Shown: positions 5,524 to 64,000 of the stretch, one piece after another
How the letters are laid out: each line of letters opens with the position of its first letter
How positions within the stretch are numbered: the stretch's first letter is position 1
Origin: Halopseudomonas pachastrellae
GTDB taxonomy: Bacteria > Pseudomonadota > Gammaproteobacteria > Pseudomonadales > Pseudomonadaceae
Length of the DNA: 64,000 bases
Assembly (NCBI RefSeq): GCF_900114765.1
Contig: NZ_FOUD01000002.1
Location: forward strand, 1-64,000
Direction: 5' to 3'
Notes under the pieces: generated by a model
What the model was told of the DNA's origin: nothing
The model's database searches: none
What the model saw: the letters and a program-made list of their open reading frames with translations, nothing else
Position numbers and translations under genes: made by a program

Positions 5524-6654
5524 TCAGTGCAGCGCGGCGATCACGCCAGCAGTCACATCCCGACAGGTCCGCCGTTGGCCAGCTGTGGTCGCCAGATCCT
5601 TGGCAACCGCTTGGCGCAGGCGTTCGGCAGCCTGTGCGCAGCCCACCCAGTCCAGCATCAGGGCTGTGGTGAGCAGCATGGCAGCAGGGTTTGCAAGCCC
5701 CTGGCCGGCGATATCCGGCGCGCTGCCATGTGTGGGTTCGAACAGCGCGGGCATGGCGCGGCTGTCCGGGTTGATATTGCAAGACGGCGCCAGCCCCAGT
5801 CCACCCGAGAGCACGGCGGCCAGATCCGTCAGAATGTCTCCATGCAAGTTGCTCGCCACCACCACGTCGAAGGTCCAGGGGCACTGCACAAACTTCATGC
5901 AAGCCGCATCGACCAGCTCATGGTGCACGCCTATTTCCGGGAATTCGGCGGCAATCTCGGCAAACACCTCGGTGTACATATCGCCCCAGTAGGGCTGAGC
6001 GTTGCGCTTGGTAATCAGGCATACCTGTGCACCAGCACGGCCCTTGTCTGCGCAGTGAAAGTGCCGCGCATCGGCACCCCGCGCCTCCAGCCGCTCACGG
6101 GCGCGGACAAAAGCATGGCGTATCAGCCGCTCGGTGGCGCGCCGGGTAAACACCTCCAGCTGGGTGGCCACTTCATCGGCCGTGCCCCGGTGCAGGCGAC
6201 CGCCCTGATTAACGTACTCGCCCTCGCTGTTTTCGCGAATCACCAGCATGTCGACCTCGGCGGCGCGCTCATCGGCCAGATACTGAGGCGCGCCGGGCAG
6301 CAGCCGCGCGGGCCGCTCACAGGCCCACAGCCCCAGGCCCTTGCGAAACTGCAGCAGCGGCGACAGCGAAACACTGTCAGGCAGGCAGTAGCGGTTTGCA
6401 TCGCTGAGCGGGCCGGGGTCGCCCAGCGCGCCCATCAGCAGCGCGTCGTAGGCTTGCACCTGGGTCATGGCATCGGCCGGCATCATCTCGCCATGCCGCC
6501 GGTGCCAGTCGGTCGAGGGCCACTCCAGCCAATCCCAGGTCAGGCCCAATGGCGTTTGCTTATCCAGCGCCTGCAGCACCTCGGCAGCGGCGGCCATCAC
6601 CTCCTGGCCGATGCCGTCGCCGGGCATCAGGGCGATGCGCCGTGGCTCAGCCAT
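5524..6654 (-). CDS. Isocitrate/isopropylmalate/tartrate dehydrogenase-family protein
   Basis: 376 residues. The N-terminal MPGDGIGQEV and the segment around SNLHGDILTDLAA (metal-binding aspartates) mark the beta-decarboxylating dehydrogenase family, which oxidises a malate-type 2-hydroxyacid and often decarboxylates it using NAD and Mg or Mn. A gene set without leuC/leuD and with aminotransferases argues against leucine synthesis and for a catabolic member such as a tartrate or D-malate type. It starts 3 bases after the aldehyde dehydrogenase stop with a weak ribosome site, suggesting coupled translation. Confidence 0.82.
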   Translation of the reverse strand: MAEPRRIALMPGDGIGQEVMAAAAEVLQALDKQTPLGLTWDWLEWPSTDWHRRHGEMMPADAMTQVQAYDALLMGALGDPGPLSDANRYCLPDSVSLSPLLQFRKGLGLWACERPARLLPGAPQYLADERAAEVDMLVIRENSEGEYVNQGGRLHRGTADEVATQLEVFTRRATERLIRHAFVRARERLEARGADARHFHCADKGRAGAQVCLITKRNAQPYWGDMYTEVFAEIAAEFPEIGVHHELVDAACMKFVQCPWTFDVVVASNLHGDILTDLAAVLSGGLGLAPSCNINPDSRAMPALFEPTHGSAPDIAGQGLANPAAMLLTTALMLDWVGCAQAAERLRQAVAKDLATTAGQRRTCRDVTAGVIAALH

Positions 6655-6657
6655 AGC

Positions 6658-8121
6658 TTATTCCCCACCCATGCACAGGTACTTGATTTCGGTGTACTCA
6701 TCCAGCCCGTGACGTGAGCCCTCGCGGCCCAGACCGCTGGCCTTGACCCCGCCGAAGGGGGCGGCCGCATTGGAGACGGCACCTTCGTTGACGCCGATAA
6801 TGCCGGCTTCCAGCGCATCGGCAACGCGCCAGACGCGGTGAATGTTGGTGCTGTAGAAGTAGGCGGCCAGCCCATAGGGCGTGTCGTTGGCCAGCTCGAT
6901 GGCCTGCTCCTCACTGTCGAAGCGAATTACCGCCGCCAACGGACCGAAGGTTTCATCAGCGCACACCTGCATGTCCGGGGTCACGCCGGTTACCAACACC
7001 GGCTCCACGTAGTTGCCTTTGGCCTCGCCCGGTGAGGCGCCGGCAACATGCTTGGCACCCTTGGCCAACGCATCGTCAAAGTGCTCCTGCACCTTTTGCA
7101 CTGCTGCCCGGTTGATCAGCGCAGACTGGGTTACGCCCTCTTCAAAGCCATCACCCAACTTGAGCTTGCCCATGGCCTCGGCCAGCTTCTCGACAAAGCG
7201 GTCATGCACGCCGCTCTGCACCAGAAAACGGTTGGCGCACACGCAGGTCTGCCCGGTATTGCGGAACTTGCTGACCATGGCACCTTCCACTGCGCGGTCC
7301 AGATCAGCATCATCAAAGACGATAAAAGGCGCGTTGCCACCCAGCTCCAGCGACACCTTTTGCACATGCTCGGCGCATTGAGCCATCAGCTGACTGCCGA
7401 CGCTGGTCGAGCCGGTAAAGCTCAGTTTGCGCACCGTCTCGCTGCTGGTCAGCACATCACTGATCAGAGACGCCTTGCCGGTGACCACATTGAACACACC
7501 CGCCGGAATCCCCGCCTCTTCGGCCAGTACGCCCAGCGCCAGCGCGGTAAAGGGGGTGGCGCTGGCGGGTTTGACAATCATTGAGCAGCCGGCTGCCAGC
7601 GCGGCGCCAGCCTTGCGCGTAATCATCGCGGCCGGAAAATTCCAGGGGGTAATGGCGGCCGTCACCCCAATTGGCTGACGGGTCACCACAATATGCTGCC
7701 CGGGCTTGGCACCGGGAATGGTCTCGCCGTAAACCCGGCGTGCTTCCTCGGCAAACCAGCGGATAAAGGAGGCGGCGTAATCCACCTCACCGCGTGATTC
7801 GACCAGCGGCTTGCCCTGCTCCAACGTCATCAGGCTGGCAATGTCCTCGCGGTGCTTGAGCATCAGGTCGTACCAGCGCATCAGCAGATCGGCGCGCTCC
7901 AGCGCGGTGGTCTTGCGCCAGCTGGCATAGGCCTTGTCGGCCTGGGCAATGCAATCATTAAGCTGAGCTTCGCTCAGGCTGGGCACGCTGCCGATGATCT
8001 CGCCGCTGGCCGGGTTATCCACCTCGATGGAGGCGCCATCGCTGGCGTCGATCCAGCTACCAGCAACCAGACATTGCTGGCGAAACAGGCGGGGTTCGGC
8101 AAGACGGGACGGTGCAGACAT
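6658..8121 (-). CDS. NAD(P)-dependent succinate-semialdehyde-type aldehyde dehydrogenase
   Basis: 487 residues, standard for the GabD-like branch. Active-site residues are Asn161 (TPWNFP), Glu259 (LELGGN) and Cys293 (NTGQTCVC); FTGSTSVG at 235-242 is the cofactor turn. It oxidises an aldehyde, probably a semialdehyde made by the class III aminotransferase downstream, to the acid. It is the first gene of the operon, with a good GGAGG site before its ATG. GabD is the best guess, but the surrounding genes do not match a simple 4-aminobutyrate operon, so no symbol is given. Confidence 0.88.
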   Translation of the reverse strand: MSAPSRLAEPRLFRQQCLVAGSWIDASDGASIEVDNPASGEIIGSVPSLSEAQLNDCIAQADKAYASWRKTTALERADLLMRWYDLMLKHREDIASLMTLEQGKPLVESRGEVDYAASFIRWFAEEARRVYGETIPGAKPGQHIVVTRQPIGVTAAITPWNFPAAMITRKAGAALAAGCSMIVKPASATPFTALALGVLAEEAGIPAGVFNVVTGKASLISDVLTSSETVRKLSFTGSTSVGSQLMAQCAEHVQKVSLELGGNAPFIVFDDADLDRAVEGAMVSKFRNTGQTCVCANRFLVQSGVHDRFVEKLAEAMGKLKLGDGFEEGVTQSALINRAAVQKVQEHFDDALAKGAKHVAGASPGEAKGNYVEPVLVTGVTPDMQVCADETFGPLAAVIRFDSEEQAIELANDTPYGLAAYFYSTNIHRVWRVADALEAGIIGVNEGAVSNAAAPFGGVKASGLGREGSRHGLDEYTEIKYLCMGGE

Positions 8122-8424
8122 AGCGGCCTCCTAGGGCAAGACGATCTAGGAGCAGGACGGCCCTGCTCAACTGAAAAACGATACGCAGCGCTCTGCGCAA
8201 AAGACGCCCCGCGAGCGGCGTGGCGAAGATATAACCGGCAGGGCACTGTTTCAGTCGACCGCGCTCCGGTCAGCGTGTTCCCCCCACGGTCAGCACCCTC
8301 CTCCACAGGGTAGGCAGGATAAACAGCAGACGCAAACAGCCAGCGGGGTTTGAACCAGAGCCGGTTTGGCGGGTCGACGTAGAAGCAGTATCACCCTGCC
8401 AAACACGCAAATAAGGAGCACCCC
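8122..8424. other. Divergent intergenic region (operon promoter and DUF4399 promoter)
   Basis: About 300 bases between the minus-strand catabolic operon and the plus-strand DUF4399 gene. I see ribosome sites at both edges (GGAGG for the dehydrogenase, AAGGAG for the DUF4399 gene) but no convincing gene and no clear sigma-70 boxes or operator. Promoters for both units must lie here by position. Confidence 0.5.
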
Positions 8425-8847
8425 ATGCAACGGATCACCCACACTCTCGCCGGCCTGCTGCTGGCCGGCAGCGCCAGCCTCGCCTTTGCCCAAACCGCCG
8501 CCCCCGAAGACGCCAAGGTGTTTTTCATTTCCCCCAGCGACGGCGCGACCGTCAGCTCCCCGGTCACCGTGCAGTTTGGCCTTGAGGGCATGGGCGTGGC
8601 GCCAGCAGGGGTTGAGCGCGAAGCCACCGGCCACCACCACCTGCTGATCGACACCGACACCCTGCCGCCGGCAGGCCAACCCATTCCTGCCGACGACAAC
8701 CACGTGCACTTTGGTGGCGGCCAAACCCAGACCAGCCTCGATTTGCCGCCGGGCGAGCATACGCTGCAGCTGATTGTTGGCGATCATCATCACATTCCGC
8801 TGTCCCCCTCAGTGACCTCCGAGCAGATCACCATCACCGTCGAGTAA
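8425..8847 (+). CDS. Exported DUF4399 protein
   Basis: 140 residues. A signal peptide of about 22 residues ends at AFA, so the protein should be periplasmic. The mature part is one Ig-like DUF4399 domain: it opens with an FISPSDGATVSSPVTV strand pattern and carries GHHHLLID, a DNHVHFGGGQT stretch and GDHHHIPL. The clusters of His could bind metal, but the function of the family is unknown. It is a single-gene unit followed by a strong terminator. Confidence 0.85.
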   Translation: MQRITHTLAGLLLAGSASLAFAQTAAPEDAKVFFISPSDGATVSSPVTVQFGLEGMGVAPAGVEREATGHHHLLIDTDTLPPAGQPIPADDNHVHFGGGQTQTSLDLPPGEHTLQLIVGDHHHIPLSPSVTSEQITITVE

Positions 8848-8859
8848 TCCCACTCGCAA

Positions 8860-8891
8860 CGCTCGCCCTGAACCACCGTTCGGGGCGAGCG
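8860..8891 (+). terminator. Rho-independent terminator after the DUF4399 gene
   Basis: Stem CGCTCGCCC with GGGCGAGCG, extended inward by GAAC/GTTC around a CACC loop, followed by CTCGTTT. It starts 13 bases after the stop codon. Confidence 0.75.
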
Positions 8892-9032
8892 CTCGTTTAA
8901 GCCGCTATCAAGGCACTGCACTTCATTGCACGCGGCCCGCAGTAAGTTTGCGATACACAGCCAGCTTGGTGCGGAACTGCAACGCCGGTTTGCGGCCTAA
9001 TCGCTCAGATACCATCGCAAGGAATTCGCACC

Positions 9033-10577
9033 ATGCTACGAGGGACTGTTCTGACCAGTGCCGCTTTCTGCCTCTGCCTACCCTTTGGCCTACAGGCGGC
9101 CGACTTCAGCTTTGAACAGGTCATCACCAAGGCCCGCGAGCGCGCCGAAAGCAGCTACCAGCCGCCCAAGGAAGTGCCGCGTTTTTTGCAGGAGCTGAGC
9201 TTCGACGACTACCAGGGCATTCGCTTCAAGCCGGAAAACAGCCTCTGGCACGAGAGCGAATCAGCCTTTCAAGTCATGCCCGTACCCAGCGGACTGTTCT
9301 ACCGCAACCCGGTTCAGGTTCATGTCATCGATGAGCAAGGTGTCGAGCCGCTAACCTTTGCCAAGAACCAGTTCACCTACCCCAATACAGAAGTCGAGCG
9401 ACTGGTGCCTGCGGACCTGGGCTACGCCGGCTTCAAGCTGACCTTTCCGCTCAAAGGCGAGGACCAGCAAAACCAGTTCATGGTGTTTGCCGGTGCCAGC
9501 TACTATCGCGCCGTAGGCAGCGAGAACAACTTCGGCATCTCCGGCCGCGGCCTGGCCATCGATACCGGCATGCCCGGCGGCGAGGAGTTTCCGGACTTTG
9601 TCGAATTCTGGCTGGAACGTCCGGCACCGGACGCCACCAGCATGACCTTTTATGGCCTGCTCGACAGTCCGAGCATGACCGGCGCTTACCGGTTTGTGGC
9701 CACCCCGGGCGAGCAAACCGCCCTGGCCGTGGAGTCGGTTCTGTTTCCGCGCCACGACGTCGAGCTGCTGGGCGTAGCGCCGCTGACCAGCATGTTTTAC
9801 TACGGAGAGAACAGCATCCGACCGCGCGGCGAATGGCGGCCCGAGGTGCACGACTCCGACGGCCTGCTGGTGCACGATGGCGGCACCGGCGAATGGCTCT
9901 GGCGCCCACTGCGCAATCCAAGCACCCTGCGTATGGACTACTTCAGCGTGCAGAATCTGCGTGGCTTCGGGCTGCTGCAACGCGACACCGACTTTCGCAG
10001 CTACCAGGACCCGGAAGCCATCTACGACGGACGCCCCAGCAGCTGGGTCGAAACAGATGGCAGCTGGGGACCAGGCAAGGTGGTACTGGTACAAATCCCC
10101 ACCCCGAACGAAACCAACGACAACATCGTCGCCTTCTGGCAACCCAACGATCCGGTTGAGCGTGGCAAGCCGCTCAAACACCGCTACCGCGTCCTGTTCG
10201 GCGACCATAGCATCACCGCCAACCCGCTCGGCAGAGCTCACGAGACCTTCGTGGGTGATGGCATGCGCGTTGGCGGCGGCAACGAGGAAGGCGCTCTGCG
10301 CTTGATCGTCGACTTTGCCGGCGGCCCACTGGATGAGCTGAGCGAGGACGCGGCGGTGCTGGGCGAAGTAGAGATGCAGAACGGCGGCGAGCTGATTGAG
10401 CAGTTTGTGCAGTACCTGCCGGCTTTGCAACGCTGGCGGCTGTCGATGCTGGTCCGCCCGGCGGCCAACGAGGCACTGGCCCTCAGCGCCCATCTGCGTG
10501 ATGCCGAGCAGACACTGAGCGAAACCTGGCAATACGAAATACCCGCCGGCAGCGACCTGCTGGCCAAGCCGGAGTAA
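9033..10577 (+). CDS. opgG: Glucan biosynthesis protein G (osmoregulated periplasmic glucans)
   Basis: 514 residues, matching OpgG/MdoG. A signal peptide of about 22 residues ends at LQAADFSFE, so the protein acts in the periplasm. The sequence then follows the family pattern: FSFEQVITKARERAESSY, DYQGIRFKPENSLW, FAGASYYRAVG, GLAIDTGMPGGEEFPDF and PRGEWRPEVHDSDGLL. OpgG works on the beta-1,2-linked glucan backbone produced by OpgH. It is the first gene of a three-gene run with a small ORF and opgH. An AAGGA site precedes the ATG. Confidence 0.95.
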   Translation: MLRGTVLTSAAFCLCLPFGLQAADFSFEQVITKARERAESSYQPPKEVPRFLQELSFDDYQGIRFKPENSLWHESESAFQVMPVPSGLFYRNPVQVHVIDEQGVEPLTFAKNQFTYPNTEVERLVPADLGYAGFKLTFPLKGEDQQNQFMVFAGASYYRAVGSENNFGISGRGLAIDTGMPGGEEFPDFVEFWLERPAPDATSMTFYGLLDSPSMTGAYRFVATPGEQTALAVESVLFPRHDVELLGVAPLTSMFYYGENSIRPRGEWRPEVHDSDGLLVHDGGTGEWLWRPLRNPSTLRMDYFSVQNLRGFGLLQRDTDFRSYQDPEAIYDGRPSSWVETDGSWGPGKVVLVQIPTPNETNDNIVAFWQPNDPVERGKPLKHRYRVLFGDHSITANPLGRAHETFVGDGMRVGGGNEEGALRLIVDFAGGPLDELSEDAAVLGEVEMQNGGELIEQFVQYLPALQRWRLSMLVRPAANEALALSAHLRDAEQTLSETWQYEIPAGSDLLAKPE

Positions 10578-57222: not shown

Positions 57223-57438
57223 CTACTTCCAGCCCTGGCGCCAGCGCTCGGTGTTTTTCAGCTCGCGCCAGTCAATCGGGTACTGACTCTTGGTGAGCAC
57301 TGCCTCCAGCAGGCAAGACAGCACCGCGCCTTCCTCGTCGTACTCCACCTCAACCACCATAAAGTGCTTTTCCCGCTTTTGAGGGGCAACGGCCGTCCAC
57401 TTGCTGTGCAGCAGTTTTGCCGGGTTGATTCGATTCAT
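57223..57438 (-). CDS. Small Trp-rich protein (TIGR02450 family)
   Basis: 71 residues. INPAKLLHSKWTAVAPQKREKHFMVVEVEYDEEG and YPIDWRELKNTERWRQGW fit the TIGR02450 Trp-rich family with three conserved Trp. Function unknown; common in gammaproteobacteria. Confidence 0.85.
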   Translation of the reverse strand: MNRINPAKLLHSKWTAVAPQKREKHFMVVEVEYDEEGAVLSCLLEAVLTKSQYPIDWRELKNTERWRQGWK

Positions 57439-57475
57439 GCTCTTTCCTCATCTGGGCTGCGGCAGGCCCACCCCG

Positions 57476-57651
57476 TTACCAACGAATGTCGATAGGCGTA
57501 CCCGGCGACACCAGCGACATAAACTCGTCCATCTCCGCGTTGGTGATCGCAATACTGCCATCAGTCCAGTCAAAGTGCTGCAGCACCGGCGCGAGCCAGC
57601 CAAAGCCGTTGCGCTGCCCGTGGACCATGATAAAACCGCCGGGGCTACTAC
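57476..57651 (-). pseudogene. C-terminal stump of an L,D-transpeptidase-like gene at the integron edge
   Basis: On the minus strand SPGGFIMVHGQRNGFGW, then HFDWTDGSIAITNAEMDEFMSL and SPGTPIDIRW-stop, match the end of a YkuD-domain protein. The usual catalytic Cys in the WTDGC block is Ser (AGT). Upstream of SPGG the gene is cut off by the 5' half of an attC site. No start remains, so it is a dead fragment truncated by an integron-edge event. Confidence 0.7.
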
Positions 57652-57676
57652 AGTCGGCTTGAACGAGTTGTTAGAC
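57652..57676 (-). repeat. Truncated attC site at the distal end of the cassette array
   Basis: On the minus strand GTCTAACAACTCGTTCAAGC followed by CGAC is the R''-L'' half of a class 1-like attC (RYYYAAC box then TTCAAGCCG). The second half is missing: the L,D-transpeptidase stump follows directly. A deletion at this edge removed the rest. Confidence 0.75.
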
Positions 57677-57972
57677 CACACCAGCCTGTTGTTGAAAGAA
57701 CAAGTCAGCGCCCGCCAAAGTATGCCGGCGAAGCCCGACTGCACGCAGGCGCGTGGCGAACCGCAGGGCGGGGCGTGCGCGGCTGCGTGCGACTCCGCGG
57801 ACCATTGCCAGATGCGCGTTGGCCGAAGGCGAGCGCGCAAGCCGATGAACTTGATGGAGAATCTTGGTGAACGCCGGAGCGCAGCGCGGCGTTCTAGCGA
57901 GAAGAGATCTGGAAGCTGGGCTTTGCCGAGAACACCAAGTGCATGGCAGCCCACGTTGTAGTTCAGGCTTCG
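57677..57972 (-). other. Integron cassette without a convincing gene
   Basis: 296 bases between the truncated attC and the attC at 57973. One open frame of this strand ends with TAA inside the attC box (typical of cassettes), but its only start codons give either a 40-residue tail (at about 57806) or lie within the neighbouring attC. The peptide is Arg/Ala-rich, not recognisable. Could be an ORF-less cassette carrying a promoter or RNA. Confidence 0.45.
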
Positions 57973-58083
57973 GTCTAACACCTGAGTTAAGCCGGACCGC
58001 GCACTCGGCCAAGGCGTATGCAACGATACCACGGCACCAAGCCGAGGCCGCGAAGCGGTCTCGGCTTGAACGTATTGTTAGAC
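57973..58083 (-). repeat. attC site of the monooxygenase cassette (111 bp)
   Basis: Ends are GTCTAAC at both outer boundaries in inverse orientation (57973-57979 and the complement of GTTAGAC 58077-58083). On the minus strand it reads GTCTAACAATACGTTCAAGC at one end and CGGCTTAACTCAGGTGTTAG at the other, the classical R''-L'' and L'-R' arms, with an imperfect palindrome between. The cassette gene stop codon lies three bases before it. Confidence 0.88.
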
Positions 58084-58086
58084 TTG

Positions 58087-58389
58087 CTAGCCAGGTAGCT
58101 TTGCCGCAAGTACATCAACGTTTTCGATGGACGGGGGCTCGGAGAACAACTCACCTGCCTTTTCCATCAACGCGGCTGCGACCTTGCCGGAGAGATGGGC
58201 CTGCCGACCCGCTTCATCCGGGAAAGCATCAAAGATTCCGAAAGTGCTTGGTCCAAGGCGAATGCCAAACCACGCAGTGGTGGCAGGCTCCTCATTGACG
58301 ATGGGAAGGCCACTCAGAAGGAAGCTCTCAACCTCTTTCTCTTTTCCGGGTTTAGCTTCAAGGCGAACGAACAAGGCTACTTTGACCAT
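58087..58389 (-). CDS. Antibiotic biosynthesis monooxygenase-like protein (integron cassette)
   Basis: 100 residues, ATG with AGGAGG upstream. VALFVRLEAKPGKEKEVESFL and AWFGIRLGPSTFGIFDAFPDEAGRQAHLSG match the ABM (dimeric ferredoxin-like) fold of small quinol monooxygenases such as YgiN. In this family the fold can oxidise quinols or aromatic compounds without cofactors; the substrate here is unknown. The gene fills its cassette and ends next to the attC, so it is a mobile cassette gene. Confidence 0.85.
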   Translation of the reverse strand: MVKVALFVRLEAKPGKEKEVESFLLSGLPIVNEEPATTAWFGIRLGPSTFGIFDAFPDEAGRQAHLSGKVAAALMEKAGELFSEPPSIENVDVLAAKLPG

Positions 58390-58442
58390 GGGATGCCTCC
58401 TGTTGTTAAGACGAAATCACGATACGCAATGTTCTCTTGCAA

Positions 58443-58520
58443 GTCTAACGCCGTGCACAGCGGCAGCAGGTCAGCTGACGTCCGGCGCCGCTGGGCGCGA
58501 ACTGCTGCACTTTGTTATAT
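58443..58520 (-). repeat. attC site of the DUF3024 cassette (78 bp)
   Basis: On the minus strand it runs from ATATAACAAAGTGCAGCAG to CTGTGCACGGCGTTAGAC, with a central imperfect palindrome (GCAGCAG... CTGCTGC). The proximal box departs from RYYYAAC at one base; the distal GTTAGAC is standard. The DUF3024 stop is one base upstream. Confidence 0.82.
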
Positions 58521-58521
58521 G

Positions 58522-58869
58522 CTATCCAAAAAAGCATGCGTACTTGTCCTCAGCCACTACGTTGAGAAAGTCAGTAAGCGACTTTGCTTTGGGGGCTGGC
58601 TCGTACCCGTGCCACTTCAAATCCGACCGTTGCCAGAATATCTTCCAGCAGTTCTGCGCCTTGACGAAAGTAGCCTTTGCCACGGGGGTTTCCGTCTTCT
58701 GTGAAGGGTCTCGCCACTGTGGTCTTACTTCAAAGATTTCGACACTTTGACCTTCAATTCTGTAGCCGAGGTCCAGTTCATTTCGGATGTGCGCTGGTGG
58801 GCGCTGCACTTTCATGAAGGCCTCGAGTTCTTTCTCAATCTTCTTAATTTCAAATTCACTTATAGCCAT
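58522..58869 (-). CDS. DUF3024 protein (integron cassette)
   Basis: 115 residues. MAISEFEIKKIEKELEAFM, PPAHIRNELDLGYRIEGQSVEIFEVRPQWRDP and the end WKIFWQRSDLKWHGYEP match DUF3024, a family often found in integron cassettes. Function unknown. The start is 26 bases from the preceding attC and the stop adjoins its own attC, the normal compact cassette layout. Confidence 0.85.
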   Translation of the reverse strand: MAISEFEIKKIEKELEAFMKVQRPPAHIRNELDLGYRIEGQSVEIFEVRPQWRDPSQKTETPVAKATFVKAQNCWKIFWQRSDLKWHGYEPAPKAKSLTDFLNVVAEDKYACFFG

Positions 58870-58875
58870 ACTATT

Positions 58876-59220
58876 TCACTGATGCCCGGCGGGCACATAA
58901 CGGTCTGTTGTGCGGTGACCCCGCATTTGGCGGACTGCTTGCTTCGCAAGCAGGGTGACATCTGCGGAAGCATCCGACACTAACACCTTGTTACTTGCTG
59001 GCGAGCGAGGAAAGTAAGCAATTGCAGGGATCGGCTTTACCTTAAGACCAACTGGCCGTCCGGTATAGCAATTCATCCCCTTGCTTATCGGCGACCTGTT
59101 GGCCTTAAGGGTTGACGACGAGCAGAGGCCTGTCAATTTCATATTCTGCGCTTTCTCATCATAGTTGGGACTCGGCGGTCTCAATGACCAAGTGCAACAT
59201 CTAGTGTAAGGTGTTGCCAT
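58876..59220 (-). CDS. Doubtful ORF in the integron-proximal cassette
   Basis: An open frame of 114 codons that runs through the attC-like site, which is unusual for a genuine cassette gene. The middle part (MKLTGLCSSSTLKANRSP and MNCYTGRPVGLKVKPIP) reads coherently. An internal ATG at about 59142 could be the start. No family recognised and no good ribosome site. Either a short cassette gene that lost its stop or no gene at all. Confidence 0.3.
   Translation of the reverse strand: MATPYTRCCTWSLRPPSPNYDEKAQNMKLTGLCSSSTLKANRSPISKGMNCYTGRPVGLKVKPIPAIAYFPRSPASNKVLVSDASADVTLLAKQAVRQMRGHRTTDRYVPAGHQ
58896..58996 (-). repeat. attC-like site of the next cassette (101 bp)
   Basis: On the minus strand it starts at AAGTAACAAGGTGTTAG and ends CAACAGACCGTTATG, similar to Vibrio-type attC ends (TAACAA ... 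CGTTATG), with a perfect central hairpin CTGCTTGC/GCAAGCAG and a CCGCA/TGCGG pair around it. Box match to the strict consensus is imperfect, so slightly less certain than the other sites. Confidence 0.68.
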
Positions 59221-59285
59221 GTCAAATCACATGCGAATTATTTTAATTCACCAATATCGAAATAGCAGCTTGCGACGATCCTATC

Positions 59286-60338
59286 TTAACGCAGCTCTCC
59301 CCCACCTTCTATACATGACTGCTTAAAGTAAAAACTGTCCGAGCTATAATTGTAAGAAATATTTAAACCCCAAGAAGTCCTATAGGAGCAACTTGGAGCA
59401 CCTCCCCTACAGGATGCCTCTACATTACCAAATGACTGGAAACACAGTGTTTTCATATCATCCACCTGACTTTTATCATCCACTATGTACTCATCACACT
59501 GCTCTCTAGAGTAAAAAGCACACGCAAAATCAATACTAGGTGACGATGTGGCGACGTGTGTGGATATTTGTTTTTCGCTATCTTCTGTCTTGTTTTCTTC
59601 CAAAGAAACTGCTTGAGCGTTGCTCGCCGTATTACTCGACACAGACTCATCAGGCTTTTCTAATTTCGGGACCTGGTTCATGTCAGTTGCCAGTCCTTCT
59701 TGGAAAAGCTCTCTTGTTTCCGTTTCAGCCACAACAGATCCTGCATTTGCCTCAGGATCACTCATTGACTCTAACAATGCCAGCTTTAACTTAGCCTCAG
59801 CAGAGTGCATCGCGTTGGGGTATTGCTCTAGATATTCTTCGAAAGCATTTACCTCGCCTTCCGAATTAGCTTTCTGCCAATCTTCTTCATACGAATTAAT
59901 CATTTTTTCAATTTTGTAATACCCTTCTTTTTCTGCTATACCTAAAGGCGTTTCGCCATCGTAATTTTCAACATTCGGGTCAGCGCCGTTTGCTAATAGA
60001 ATGGATGCATTTTCAGTTGAGTTCCCTTTTACAGCCACATGCAGAGGGGTTGTGAAATAACCGCGTTCGCGGCAAGAAGTTACATCACCCCCAACTTTTA
60101 TCAAGTACTCAATAATTTCAGTGGTGTTTTCTTCATCAGCGAATCCACAAATAGGAATTGTATAATGTGTGCTATCGTTCACCTGTGCTCTAAATTCAGG
60201 CGAGTCCATCAGAGCTTTCATCTCATTGAAGTCAGCACCCAAATCGTACTTCCAGTATAGGTCTCCTGTAGGGGTAGAAGCGCAGCCAGCTAAGGCTGCG
60301 GCCGAAATAAACGCTAAGCTAATGTTTTTTTTGATCAT
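59286..60338 (-). CDS. Ankyrin-repeat lipoprotein, AT-rich
   Basis: 350 residues from ATG 60338, which has AAGGAG 8 bases upstream. Lipoprotein signal MIKKNISLAFISAAALAGC with lipobox ALAGC. Two to three ankyrin-like repeats lie at about 75-150 (TTPLHVAVKGNSTENASILLANGADPNVENYDGETPLGIAEK); a helical and Ser/Glu-rich linker follows, then a Cys-rich C-terminal domain with about seven Cys. Base composition is clearly more AT-rich than in neighbouring genes, pointing to recent transfer. It lies between the intI remnant and the cassettes; no attC follows it. Confidence 0.82.
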   Translation of the reverse strand: MIKKNISLAFISAAALAGCASTPTGDLYWKYDLGADFNEMKALMDSPEFRAQVNDSTHYTIPICGFADEENTTEIIEYLIKVGGDVTSCRERGYFTTPLHVAVKGNSTENASILLANGADPNVENYDGETPLGIAEKEGYYKIEKMINSYEEDWQKANSEGEVNAFEEYLEQYPNAMHSAEAKLKLALLESMSDPEANAGSVVAETETRELFQEGLATDMNQVPKLEKPDESVSSNTASNAQAVSLEENKTEDSEKQISTHVATSSPSIDFACAFYSREQCDEYIVDDKSQVDDMKTLCFQSFGNVEASCRGGAPSCSYRTSWGLNISYNYSSDSFYFKQSCIEGGGELR

Positions 60339-60518
60339 CGATTGAACTCCTTGTGACTTAAATATCCCTCTAAGAGAATTAATGTGCCTGGGCACTTAGC
60401 GAGGCTGTAGAAAATCCATTCCGGGCTCACTCCAGCCATCTCCTTGCTTATCTTTTAGCCCAAAGTCGCTCGGGTCAAACTGTATTCAAGTACGCTGGCG
60501 TGACCTGATATCCACCTA

Positions 60519-60899
60519 ACACCTAAGCATTCGAACGGCATGCTGTGCACGCTGTTCAATGCTTAGGTGCTGGATCGCTCGCTGGGCGATATCGTCCGGG
60601 CCAAACGCCCTGCACGCATTCCGACAGTGCCGACGCACAGCGACGCAACCCAGATCATTGGATTGCTGCCTGAGCCTCACAAACTGGTTGCTTTGCTGAT
60701 GTAGGGTACGGGGCTGGGTGTTGTGGAAACCTGTCGGCTGTGCCTCAAAGACATCGACCGCCAGATCATCACGGGGCGCAGCGGCAAGAGCCCTAGGGGC
60801 CGCGCCACGCTGCTGGGGCATGCTGATGTGCGTACTACGCAGATTTATACCCATGTCCTTGGTAACGCCTTTGCCGGGGTGCAAAGTCCGCTCGGCTGA
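60519..60899 (+). pseudogene. Integron integrase (intI) remnant
   Basis: One plus-strand frame to TGA 60897-60899 keeps clear IntI text: LDRSLGDIVRAKRPARIP, IIGLLPEPHKLVALLM, then GTGLGVVETCRLCLKDIDRQI and the end LLGHADVRTTQIYTHVLGNA with the Tyr nucleophile and FAGVQSPLG. Two in-frame TAG codons (60564, 60702), a missing N-terminus and a deletion of the middle catalytic region (HxxR block and Lys) show that it is dead. The frame points away from the cassettes, the standard arrangement of an integron. Confidence 0.85.
60520..60569. repeat. Inverted repeat CACCTAAGCATT / AATGCTTAGGTG inside the intI remnant
   Basis: Perfect 12-base arms at 60520-60531 and 60558-60569 with a 26-base loop that itself holds GAAC/GTTC. 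The left neighbour ACCTAAC fits an attC-type RYYYAAC box, but no matching GTTRRRY follows. It overlaps the coding remnant, so its origin is unclear. Confidence 0.6.
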
Positions 60900-61039: not shown

Positions 61040-64000
61040 TTAGCCGACCCACACGCGGGCGTTACGGAACATGCGCATCCAGCCGCCGTCTTCGCTCCAG
61101 TCATCCGGGTGCCAGGAGTTCTGTACGGCGCGGAACACGCGCTCGGGGTGCGGCATCATGATGGTGACGCGACCGTCGCGGGTGGTCAGGCCGGTAATGC
61201 CGCGCGGCGAGCCGTTCGGGTTGGCCGGATAGCGTTCGGTCATGCGACCGCGGTTGTCGACATAACGCAGGGCAACGGCGTTGGCGGCCTCACAGGCGTC
61301 AACAGCGGCGCTGCTGGCAAACTCGGCGTGGCCTTCACCGTGGGCGATGGCAATCGGTAGACGGCTGCCAACCATGCCGCTGAGGAAGATCGACGGCGAA
61401 GGCTGCACTTCAACCATGGCAACACGCGCTTCGAACTGCTCGGAGCGGTTACGCACAAAGCGCGGCCAGTGGTCGCTGCCAGGAATCAGCTCACGCAGGT
61501 TGGAGAGCATCTGACAGCCATTACATACGCCAAGAGCGAAGGTATCAGGGCGAGCAAAGAAGGCTGTAAAGGCTTCACGGGCAACCTGGTTGAACAGGAT
61601 CGATTTGGCCCACCCCTCACCAGCGCCCAGCACGTCACCGTAGGAGAAGCCGCCACAGGCGACCAGACCACGGAAGTCTTCCAGCTCAACGCGGCCACTG
61701 AGAATGTCGCTCATGTGTACGTCGACCGCGCTGAAGCCGGCGCGGTTGAAGGCGGCGGCCATTTCAACCTGACCATTGACGCCCTGCTCACGCAGAATGG
61801 CAACGCGTGGGCGCGAGCCCTTGCTGATGGCCGGTGCGGCAACGTCTTCGTTGATATCAAAGCTGAGCAGCGCGTGCAGGCCCGGGTTGGCGTCGTCGGC
61901 AATGCCTTCAAACTCCTGATCCGCGCATTCGGCGTTGTCGCGCAGGCGCTGAATCTGCCAGCTGGTTTCGCTCCAGGCTTGCTGCCAGATGGCGCGGGTG
62001 CTTCCCAGCACCGGCTTGCCGTTAAACTCGAAGCGAATCGCCTGCTCGCTGGCGGGCTGACCGATCACCGCGCTGCAATCACCCAGGCCAGCGGCAGACA
62101 GCTGTGCCAGCACTTCTTCGGTGTCGCTCTGGGCAACCTGAATAACCGCACCCAGCTCTTCGTTGAACAGTACGTCGGCCAGTGTGCTGGCGTCTTGCGC
62201 CAGTACGTCGAGGTTGATGTTCAGGCCGCAGCGGGCGGCAAAGGCCATCTCGGTCAGCGTGGTGAACAGGCCACCGTCGGAGCGGTCGTGATAGGCGAGC
62301 AGCAGCTCGTCCTGGTTCAGGCCCTGGATCACGGCGAAGAAGGCTTTGAGGTCTTCAGCGTCGTCCAGATCCGGCACCTGCTGGCCGATCTTGTTGTAGA
62401 CCTGCGCCAGCGCCGAACCGCCCAGACGGTTCTGACCACGGCCCAGATCGATCAAGATCAGATCGGTTGAACCGTGATCCAGACGCAGCTGCGGGGTCAG
62501 GGTCGCGCGCACATCCTGTACCGGTGCAAAGCCAGTGACGATCAGCGACAGCGGCGAGGTAACCGACTTCTCTTTGCCGGACTCGTCCCAGCGGGTCTTC
62601 ATGGACATGGAGTCCTTGCCGACCGGAATGGTGATGCCCAGCTCAGGACACAATTCCATGCCGACCGCCTTGACGGTGTCGTACAGGCGAGCGTCTTCAC
62701 CCGGGTGACCGGCAGCCGACATCCAGTTGGCCGACAGCTTGATGTCCGACAGCTTGTCGATGCGGGCAGCAGCCAGGTTGGTCACGGTTTCTGCCACCGC
62801 CATGCGGCCGGAGGCCGGGGCGTTGAGCAGCGCCAGCGGCGTGCGCTCACCCATGGCCATGGCTTCACCGGTGTTAACGTCGAAGCTGGTAGAGGTGACG
62901 GCGCAGTCGGCAACCGGCACCTGCCATGGGCCAACCATCTGGTCACGGGTGACCATACCGGTGATGCTGCGGTCACCAATGGTGATCAGGAACTGTTTGC
63001 TGGCAACGGCCGGTAGGCGCAGTACGCGTTCGGCAGCGTCGCTCAGGTTCAGTTCATTGGCGCTGAAGTCGTCGCCCTGCTCGGCTTCGCGCTCGACACT
63101 GCGATGCATGCGCGGCGGCTTGCCGAGCAGAACCGACAGCGGCATGTCGACCGGCTGATTGTCGAAGTGCGTGTCGTTGAGTACCAGCAGTTGCTCTTCG
63201 GTGGCTTCACCCACCACAGCGAAGGGGCAACGCTCACGCTGGCAGATGGCTTCGAAACGCTCGAAATCGGCGTTCGGCACGGCCATGACGTAGCGTTCCT
63301 GGGATTCGTTGGACCAGATTTCCAGCGGGCTCATGCCCGGCTCGTCATTCGGCACGTTACGCAGCTCGAAACGACCGCCGCGGCCACCGTCGTTAACCAG
63401 CTCCGGGAAGGCGTTGGACAGACCGCCCGCGCCCACGTCGTGGATAAAGGCGATCGGGTTCTTGTCCCCCAGCTGCCAGCAGCGGTCGATGACCTCTTGG
63501 CAGCGGCGCTCCATTTCCGGGTTTTCACGCTGCACGGAGGCAAAGTCCAGGTCCTCGGCGCTGGCACCTGTGGCCATCGAGGACGCCGCGCCGCCGCCCA
63601 GACCGATCAGCATCGCCGGGCCACCCAGCACGATCAGCTTGGCGCCAACCGGGATGTCGGACTTCTCGACGTGGGTTGCACGGATGTTGCCCATGCCACC
63701 GGCGATCATGATCGGCTTGTGGTAACCACGGGTTTCCGGGCCACGGGGCGAGTCGATAGTAGTTTCGAAGGTACGGAAGTAACCGTTCAGGTTCGGACGA
63801 CCAAACTCGTTGTTGAACGCGGCGCCGCCGAGCGGGCCTTCGATCATGATCTGCAGCGGGGTAACAATGCGCGACGGCTTGCCGTTGTCTTCTTCCCACG
63901 GTTGGACGAAGCCCGGAATGCGCAGGTTAGAGACGGTAAAACCGGTCAGGCCAGCCTTGGGCTTGCCGCCGATACCGGTTGCGCCTTCGTCACGAATTTC
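61040..64000 (-). CDS. purL: Phosphoribosylformylglycinamidine synthase (5' end outside the window)
   Basis: The frame is open from the window edge to the stop at 61040: 986 of about 1300 residues are visible. The reading continues past the internal ATG at 63847 upstream as [20 protein letters not shown], which is a normal PurL segment. FGAM synthase domain motifs include [19 protein letters not shown] and [15 protein letters not shown]. The C-terminal glutaminase shows [12 protein letters not shown] (Cys nucleophile), HGEGHAEF and MPHPERVFR. It converts FGAR to FGAM in purine synthesis. Confidence 0.97.

Follow-up and report, generated by a model that had tools for sequence, protein, structure and literature searches.

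A chromosomal integron relic beside purL in Halopseudomonas pachastrellae and a second attI site without intI

What becomes of a cassette array, and of any further attI site in the same genome, once the integron integrase is lost? This question is raised by a stretch of 64,000 nucleotides from Halopseudomonas pachastrellae (GCF_900114765.1, contig NZ_FOUD01000002.1, positions 1-64,000 of the forward strand; hereafter the window, with genome label G000 and contig label C9). A reading of this sequence alone, made earlier by a model, had proposed a chromosomal-integron relic next to purL, with attC sites, a matching array direction and a dead integrase gene (intI). We followed this up within the window's own assembly (3.93 Mb, 55 contigs, 99.99% complete) and in a set of 37 Halopseudomonas genomes, one per species and including the window's own. 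The purL locus is a chromosomal-integron relic and no working integron. We regard it as highly probable that this integron died with its array frozen, and that a second platform, located on contig C27 of the same assembly, was most likely served in trans by an IntI, probably that of purL, until the purL intI was lost.

The integron relic beside purL

The integrase gene was identified with the family model TIGR02249 and by alignment to the intact intI of a sister genome, G017.

60565..60899, plus strand: intI relic, lacking codons 1-86 of the G017 gene

TIGR02249 covers two pieces of the relic (model positions 87-164 and 276-314), so that an IntI match was found for the frame at 60.5-60.9 kb. 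The first piece corresponds to codons 87-174 of the intact G017 protein and contains one stop as well as small indels. Over its last 93 bases the relic shares 97% identity with the G017 gene, which itself scores 403 bits. The sequence-only reading had drawn the intI-like frame from 60519 to 60899; the frame indeed holds a real IntI remnant, while its homology begins only at about 60565 and the stretch 60514-60575 turned out to be a separate hairpin. Compared with G017, 360 bp (120 codons) are missing inside the relic. In G017 the 9-mer ACGCTGCTG flanks the missing stretch on both sides, and the window has it at 60807-60815, which points to a repeat-mediated deletion of the kind that replication slippage would make. 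An earlier size of 351 bp, taken from the alignment ends, was replaced on re-checking by 360 bp with the 9-bp repeat. The G017 motif GSGLRVVEACRL reads GTGLGVVETCRL in the relic; we take the arginine of GSGLRVVEACRL to be catalytic (Arg146 of IntI1). Judged by the stop, the absence of codons 1-86 and the loss of 120 further codons, the integrase of the purL locus is non-functional, as had been proposed. No convincing match to the attI regions of G017 or G006 was obtained beside the relic in 60341-60580 (scores of 22 and 17). A TIGR02249 search of all contigs revealed no other IntI in the assembly, and hence no candidate for the integrase acting in trans that had been allowed for earlier. Besides the relic, the model touches two frames of 317 and 372 amino acids, whose best pieces score 78 and 68 bits where the cut-off is 265; these frames are taken to be XerC/XerD.

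A strict scan for paired RYYYAAC/GTTRRRY motifs yielded one attC site in the window and three in the relatives' loci. Relaxing the motifs detected arrays in the relatives, yet also numerous chance palindromes in the window. We therefore used a covariance model instead (R1), which was built from 43 aligned candidate sites of purL-side loci in other genomes and contains no window sequence. The sites of the window are as follows.

58443..58520, minus strand: attC site, R1 41 bits
57973..58083, minus strand: attC site, R1 20.2 bits, folding z-score -4.6
58895..58996, minus strand: weaker attC site, R1 20.0 bits with filters off only, folding z-score -3.8
57652..57676, minus strand: half attC (R''-L'' arm), read by eye, cut at the junction with ykuD

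With filters off, R1 detected three attC sites between 57200 and 61100, all on the minus strand, with a next-best score of 9.6 bits; the highest score in window positions 1-57000 was 13.2 bits. Default filters applied to the whole window reported 58443-58520 and 57973-58083 and not 58895-58996. The model thus matched both sites that had been described as well formed, the attC-like site given before as 58896-58996, and the leftward direction of the array. Folding of the bottom strands, compared with shuffled sequences, agreed for 57973-58083 and 58895-58996 (z-scores as listed) and did not do so for 58443-58520 (z-score -1.4; 22 of 200 shuffles were equally good). As its folding is not clearly better than that of shuffles, the support for 58443-58520 comes from R1 only. 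This site shares 92% identity over 76 bases with an attC of the purL array of G028. By eye, the half attC looks like the R''-L'' arm of the attC at 57973. Within the array the attC sites are unidirectional; two lie 1-3 bases behind genes and the third has no clear gene.

The purL segment is held by 36 of the 37 genomes. We examined 35 loci, namely the window and 34 others of up to 16 kb each, leaving out a contig-end fragment (G014). They fall into the following groups.

Full-length intI without stop or split, 11 of 35 loci: G017, G027, G029, G015, G024, G025, G032, G005, G010, G003, G008
Broken intI, 11 of 35 loci: window, G006, G034, G002, G033, G013, G018, G035, G028, G007, G020
No intI seen, 13 of 35 loci: G019, G022, G026, G004, G031, G036, G011, G023, G012, G001, G021, G016, G030 (G004 and G036 with too little sequence to judge)

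The side of purL is thus a common integron site in Halopseudomonas. The comparison with sister genomes, which had been suggested as a check, revealed full-length intI at the same place together with attC arrays. The lesions in intI differ among genomes, indicating that loss was repeated. Across the genus, 24 of 37 genomes have a TIGR02249 match above the family cut-off, and several, some of those grouped above among them, carry a full-length IntI elsewhere. Taken together, the attC sites, the array direction, the IntI remnant and the full-length intI of the sisters bear out the relic proposed from the sequence.

A second attI beside an Mrr-type nuclease gene

A search of the whole G000 genome with R1, in which 150 of 1423 candidates were scored, returned the best site of the window and at least three sites on contig C27 (37, 26.5, and 22.5 bits); the two 20-bit window sites were not listed, and further weak sites may have been missed.

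G000:C27:80000-97846, 6713-9570 of that stretch: second attI with promoter-like region and three attC sites, no intI

Immediately before the C27 attC sites lies a 59-bp match, at 86% identity, to the G017 attI region that precedes intI. This attI is continuous with a stretch resembling the intI promoter region, and where intI would be expected an Mrr-type nuclease gene has its 3' end. The nuclease gene was matched in 26 of the 37 genomes, and 21 of these loci were examined (20 and that of the window's genome; the weak-match genomes G008, G012, G013, G015, and G026 were left out). A complete second attI region was present in six (G000, G002, G017, G034, G006, and G032). The G033 contig ends after 51 bases of the promoter side, so that the attI box lies beyond view. 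In the remaining 14 of the 21 loci the gene was present without a match to the attI queries, and R1 gave a single match, with an E-value of 0.46, across these 14 loci and G033. No intI was found around the nuclease gene in any of the 21 stretches.

The six complete copies agree up to AGCTGTTA and then diverge completely. Behind this point, R1 matched three sites in G000, one in G002, four in G017, two in G034, and six in G006 (one of them at 17.9 bits). The right flank is common to the window's genome, G002, G017, and G034. Comparing G006 or G032 with any other copy (nine pairs) gives 78-88% identity over the last 60 bp and 40-58% over the neighbouring 70-base spacer. Since attI is conserved while the sequence past the GTTA core differs, cassettes were probably exchanged at the second attI, which was presumably served by an IntI from elsewhere. 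In G034 and G032, both single-contig assemblies, the purL locus and the second attI lie more than 0.6 Mb apart, which excludes an assembly effect in these two. We had also considered the C27 array as a translocated piece of the purL array; this was dropped, as relatives have the same attI at the same gene. In a tree of 455 purL bases, the window, G002, G006, G017, G033, and G034 form a clade (99/97) with G032 outside. This placement of G032, away from the other six genomes counted as having the second attI, does not support a single gain.

A 1.2-kb segment that is 99.5-99.7% identical in both arrays of G032 was at first taken as a sign of cassette exchange. It proved instead to be an IS110-family transposase gene present in three copies in the two arrays (L094 6910-8102 and 10021-11222; L211 about 6393-7594), and so provides no evidence for shuffling. 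We presume that these copies are reminiscent of IS1111-attC elements.

The hairpin at the intI break and competing explanations

60514..60575, plus strand: attC-like hairpin abutting intI codon 87, related to IS91-family termini

The hairpin folds with z-scores of -6.6 and -6.7 on the two strands. R1 gives it only 6 bits, and it is therefore no typical attC of the genus. A placement in the array direction was dropped because the loop favours the plus strand; its best orientation is thus opposite to that of the array. Similar hairpins stand at the ends of IS91-family elements (coordinates L116 92-1545 and L095 11647-14012; further elements in L137, L141, L117, L183, L184, and L185). In all eight ends read, an attC-like hairpin is followed by GTTR, and five of the eight fit GTTRRRY. 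The ends in G030, G008, G028, G029, and G016 read CTTA-AT and then GTT, while plasmid relatives of Thiodictyon, Thiothrix, and Vibrio campbellii have the hairpin followed by GTTAGGC, GTTGGCT, and GTTAGAT. The G030 transposase is of IS91 type, and the transposase is broken in the G008 and G016 elements. A tyrosine-recombinase gene precedes the transposase in six of the eight elements (G028, G030, G029, and the three plasmids), and that before the G030 and G029 transposases was recognised by TIGR02249 matches. Five of the eight elements are integron-linked (G030, G028, G016, Vibrio, and Thiodictyon). Behind the element end, R1 matched attC sites of the same direction in G030, G028, G016, and Vibrio, whose copy is then followed by an arr gene; the Thiodictyon plasmid has an annotated integron integrase whose end lies about 1.2 kb ahead of the integrase gene of the element. 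At the G029 end there was only a 17.3-bit R1 match, and at the G008 and Thiothrix ends there was none.

These observations suggest, tentatively and at somewhat under an even chance, a two-platform integron in a group of Halopseudomonas species, in which the purL intI would feed the array beside it as well as a lasting satellite attI at least 0.6 Mb away by the Mrr-type nuclease gene, and in which a cassette-like IS91 element would have killed the window's intI at a core-like GTTRRRY, freezing both arrays. The hairpin aligns on the plus strand with the IS91-family ends of G030 (E-value 1.4e-7) and G008 (9.3e-7; both per genome), and for all five element ends the plus-strand score exceeds the minus-strand score (57/40, 54/36, 43/36, 57/40, and 44/36). 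In addition, the 966-bp intI of G017 has just two GTTRRRY motifs on its plus strand, and the junction at codon 87 coincides with one of them. Yet the hairpin could be an unrelated palindrome, with intI broken by plain deletions alone, an account to which we give slightly less weight. Being palindromic, the hairpin also matches itself (E-value 5.9e-6), which inflates its scores, and the low R1 score points the same way. At the junction the window has GCTGGAT, and G032 likewise has GCT, so that the ancestor may have lacked GTT. Moreover, AGGTG is common to the end of the hairpin and the sister intI at the junction, which makes a microhomology deletion possible, and the other lesion of this gene is a plain repeat deletion. 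No IS91 remnant was detected in the 333 bases to the left of the hairpin (scores of 14-17 against a 95% shuffle level of 21-23), and a transposase of the G030 type has no match in the window's genome.

For C27, the competing account is that of an ordinary cluster of attC sites lacking an integron integrase (CALIN), left when a second integron lost intI and inert ever since, its differences between species being due to deletions and horizontal transfer. PMC8618304 names the loss of intI among the proposed origins of CALINs, and there is no intI near the C27 array. We nevertheless consider this account the less likely one. Flanks and attI are about 91-97% identical among G000, G002, G017, and G034, yet the contents change exactly at the core; the second arrays of these four genomes have no cassette in common at an E-value below 1e-8; and in the distant members, G006 and G032, the attI box is better conserved than the spacer. 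Several findings do weigh against the favoured account of the two loci. Two of the three attC sites of the window reach only about 20 bits with R1. G032 has no R1 match behind its second attI, leaving attC behind five of the six complete copies. The promoter-side part is 68-75% identical in the pairs with G006 or G032, so the attI box is not the sole constrained part. The second attI box of the window's genome has drifted slightly further than those of its close relatives, matching at 55 of 60 positions, compared with 57-58 of 60 among G002, G017, and G034. Among the five relatives whose second attI is complete, three (G002, G034, and G006) have a broken purL intI, and consequently only G017 and G032 could serve this site from purL now. 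Finally, turnover is deduced between species only, from one genome each. The remaining explanation, that there is no integron and that chance palindromes lie beside a fragment of a XerC-like recombinase, is extremely improbable. TIGR02249 gave weak signals in all 14 control genomes, but none above cut-off, and the near-identity of the end of the relic to a 403-bit intI, the attC model matches in the window, and the joint presence of intI and attC at the same locus in sisters all speak against it.

Cassettes, flanks, and known integrons

The remaining features of the purL locus are listed here.

57223..57438, minus strand: Trp-rich gene TIGR02450/DUF2389, left flank (family match)
57476..57646, minus strand: truncated L,D-transpeptidase (YkuD) gene, of which the last 56 codons remain (PF03734, E-value 1.1e-5)
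58087..58389, minus strand: cassette gene, 100 amino acids, monooxygenase-like by plasmid annotation only
58522..58869, minus strand: cassette gene, DUF3024 (PF11225, E-value 4.5e-40)
59286..60395, minus strand: ankyrin-repeat open reading frame of uncertain origin (PF12796)
61040..64000, minus strand: purL, right flank, running off the window

In G017, ykuD is whole at the same place (168 residues), and the cysteine of its DGCIAI motif is a serine in the window fragment. The stretch 57223-57640 is 97% identical in G017. Beyond 57646 the window no longer aligns with G017, and the half attC starts six bases further on, indicating that a deletion joined the array to ykuD through the middle of an attC. 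The two small genes had been said to stop just before an attC, and they do so, DUF3024 by one base and the 100-amino-acid gene by three. The family assignment of DUF3024 was likewise correct, and 6 of the 36 other genomes encode related proteins. The naming of the second gene as an ABM-type monooxygenase found no support in Pfam: the protein had no Pfam match at an E-value of 0.001 and no credible one at 1, and the name goes back to plasmid genes of about 70-79% DNA similarity, some of which are so annotated. Relatives of this protein occur in 12 of the 36 other genomes. The ankyrin-repeat frame is lipoprotein-like, with weak matches only, in 2 of the 36. It lies between the array and the intI relic, and the nearest attC is the weak site, 290 bases behind its stop; it is not shown to be a cassette. 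Searched at gathering threshold, Rfam gave no attC-type family in the window and a sole match to a glycine riboswitch (RF00504, 30727-30824, 58.9 bits).

Taken by itself, the purL relic is nothing unusual, decayed integrons being well known. It resembles the chromosomal integrons with inactivated intI of Xanthomonas (PMC9229058) in having a fixed chromosomal intI, an attC array and a lost integrase, and differs in its position at purL, in the attC-like hairpin at the break and in the second attI without intI. Integrase inactivation is described as common (43% and 46% of homologs; PMC3108266), by stops, frameshifts, deletions, and insertion sequences (PMC3108266, PMC9229058); see also PMC9345347 and PMC11023631. 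The C27 cluster is like a CALIN, which has at least two attC sites, in that three attC sites and no integrase were found. It differs from CALINs as characterised in the pertinent sections of PMC8618304 and PMC9024848 in keeping a conserved attI along with a promoter-like region and a single insertion point shared across species. One of these sources treats attI sites outside class 1 as poorly described. A comparable case is the IS91-like element ISShvi3 of a Shewanella integron; the eight ends read here come from other genera, each with the hairpin followed by GTTR, and the window holds a hairpin remnant only. Judged from literature listings, there was no relevant paper on purL-associated chromosomal integrons in Pseudomonas or on Halopseudomonas integrons. 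The lasting attI without intI is the less ordinary part, and we make no claim that it is unpublished.

The history that we propose is as follows. As the sister locus shows, an integron between ykuD and purL took up cassettes leftward from attI, with intI facing purL. In the lineage of the window, intI was broken with loss of codons 1-86 and the adjoining attI, the hairpin now standing at codon 87. What remains of the gene has a stop and, probably by slippage, the 360-bp deletion between 9-bp repeats, and erosion at the far end of the array split an attC and truncated ykuD. Because intI is broken, the old purL cassettes would be frozen. On the simplest account, an ancestral copy of promoter and attI stayed beside the nuclease gene without intI; an IntI, probably that of purL, would have inserted cassettes there, and this service would have ceased in the lineages whose intI died.

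The fate of an array after integrase loss is hard to see, and in this genus the same locus can be found full, decayed, or empty. With the satellite attI one could test directly whether a single integrase keeps up cassette exchange at an attI far from its own gene. If the proposed history is true, some CALINs would have a specific origin, and counting only arrays linked to intI would underestimate the reach of integrons.

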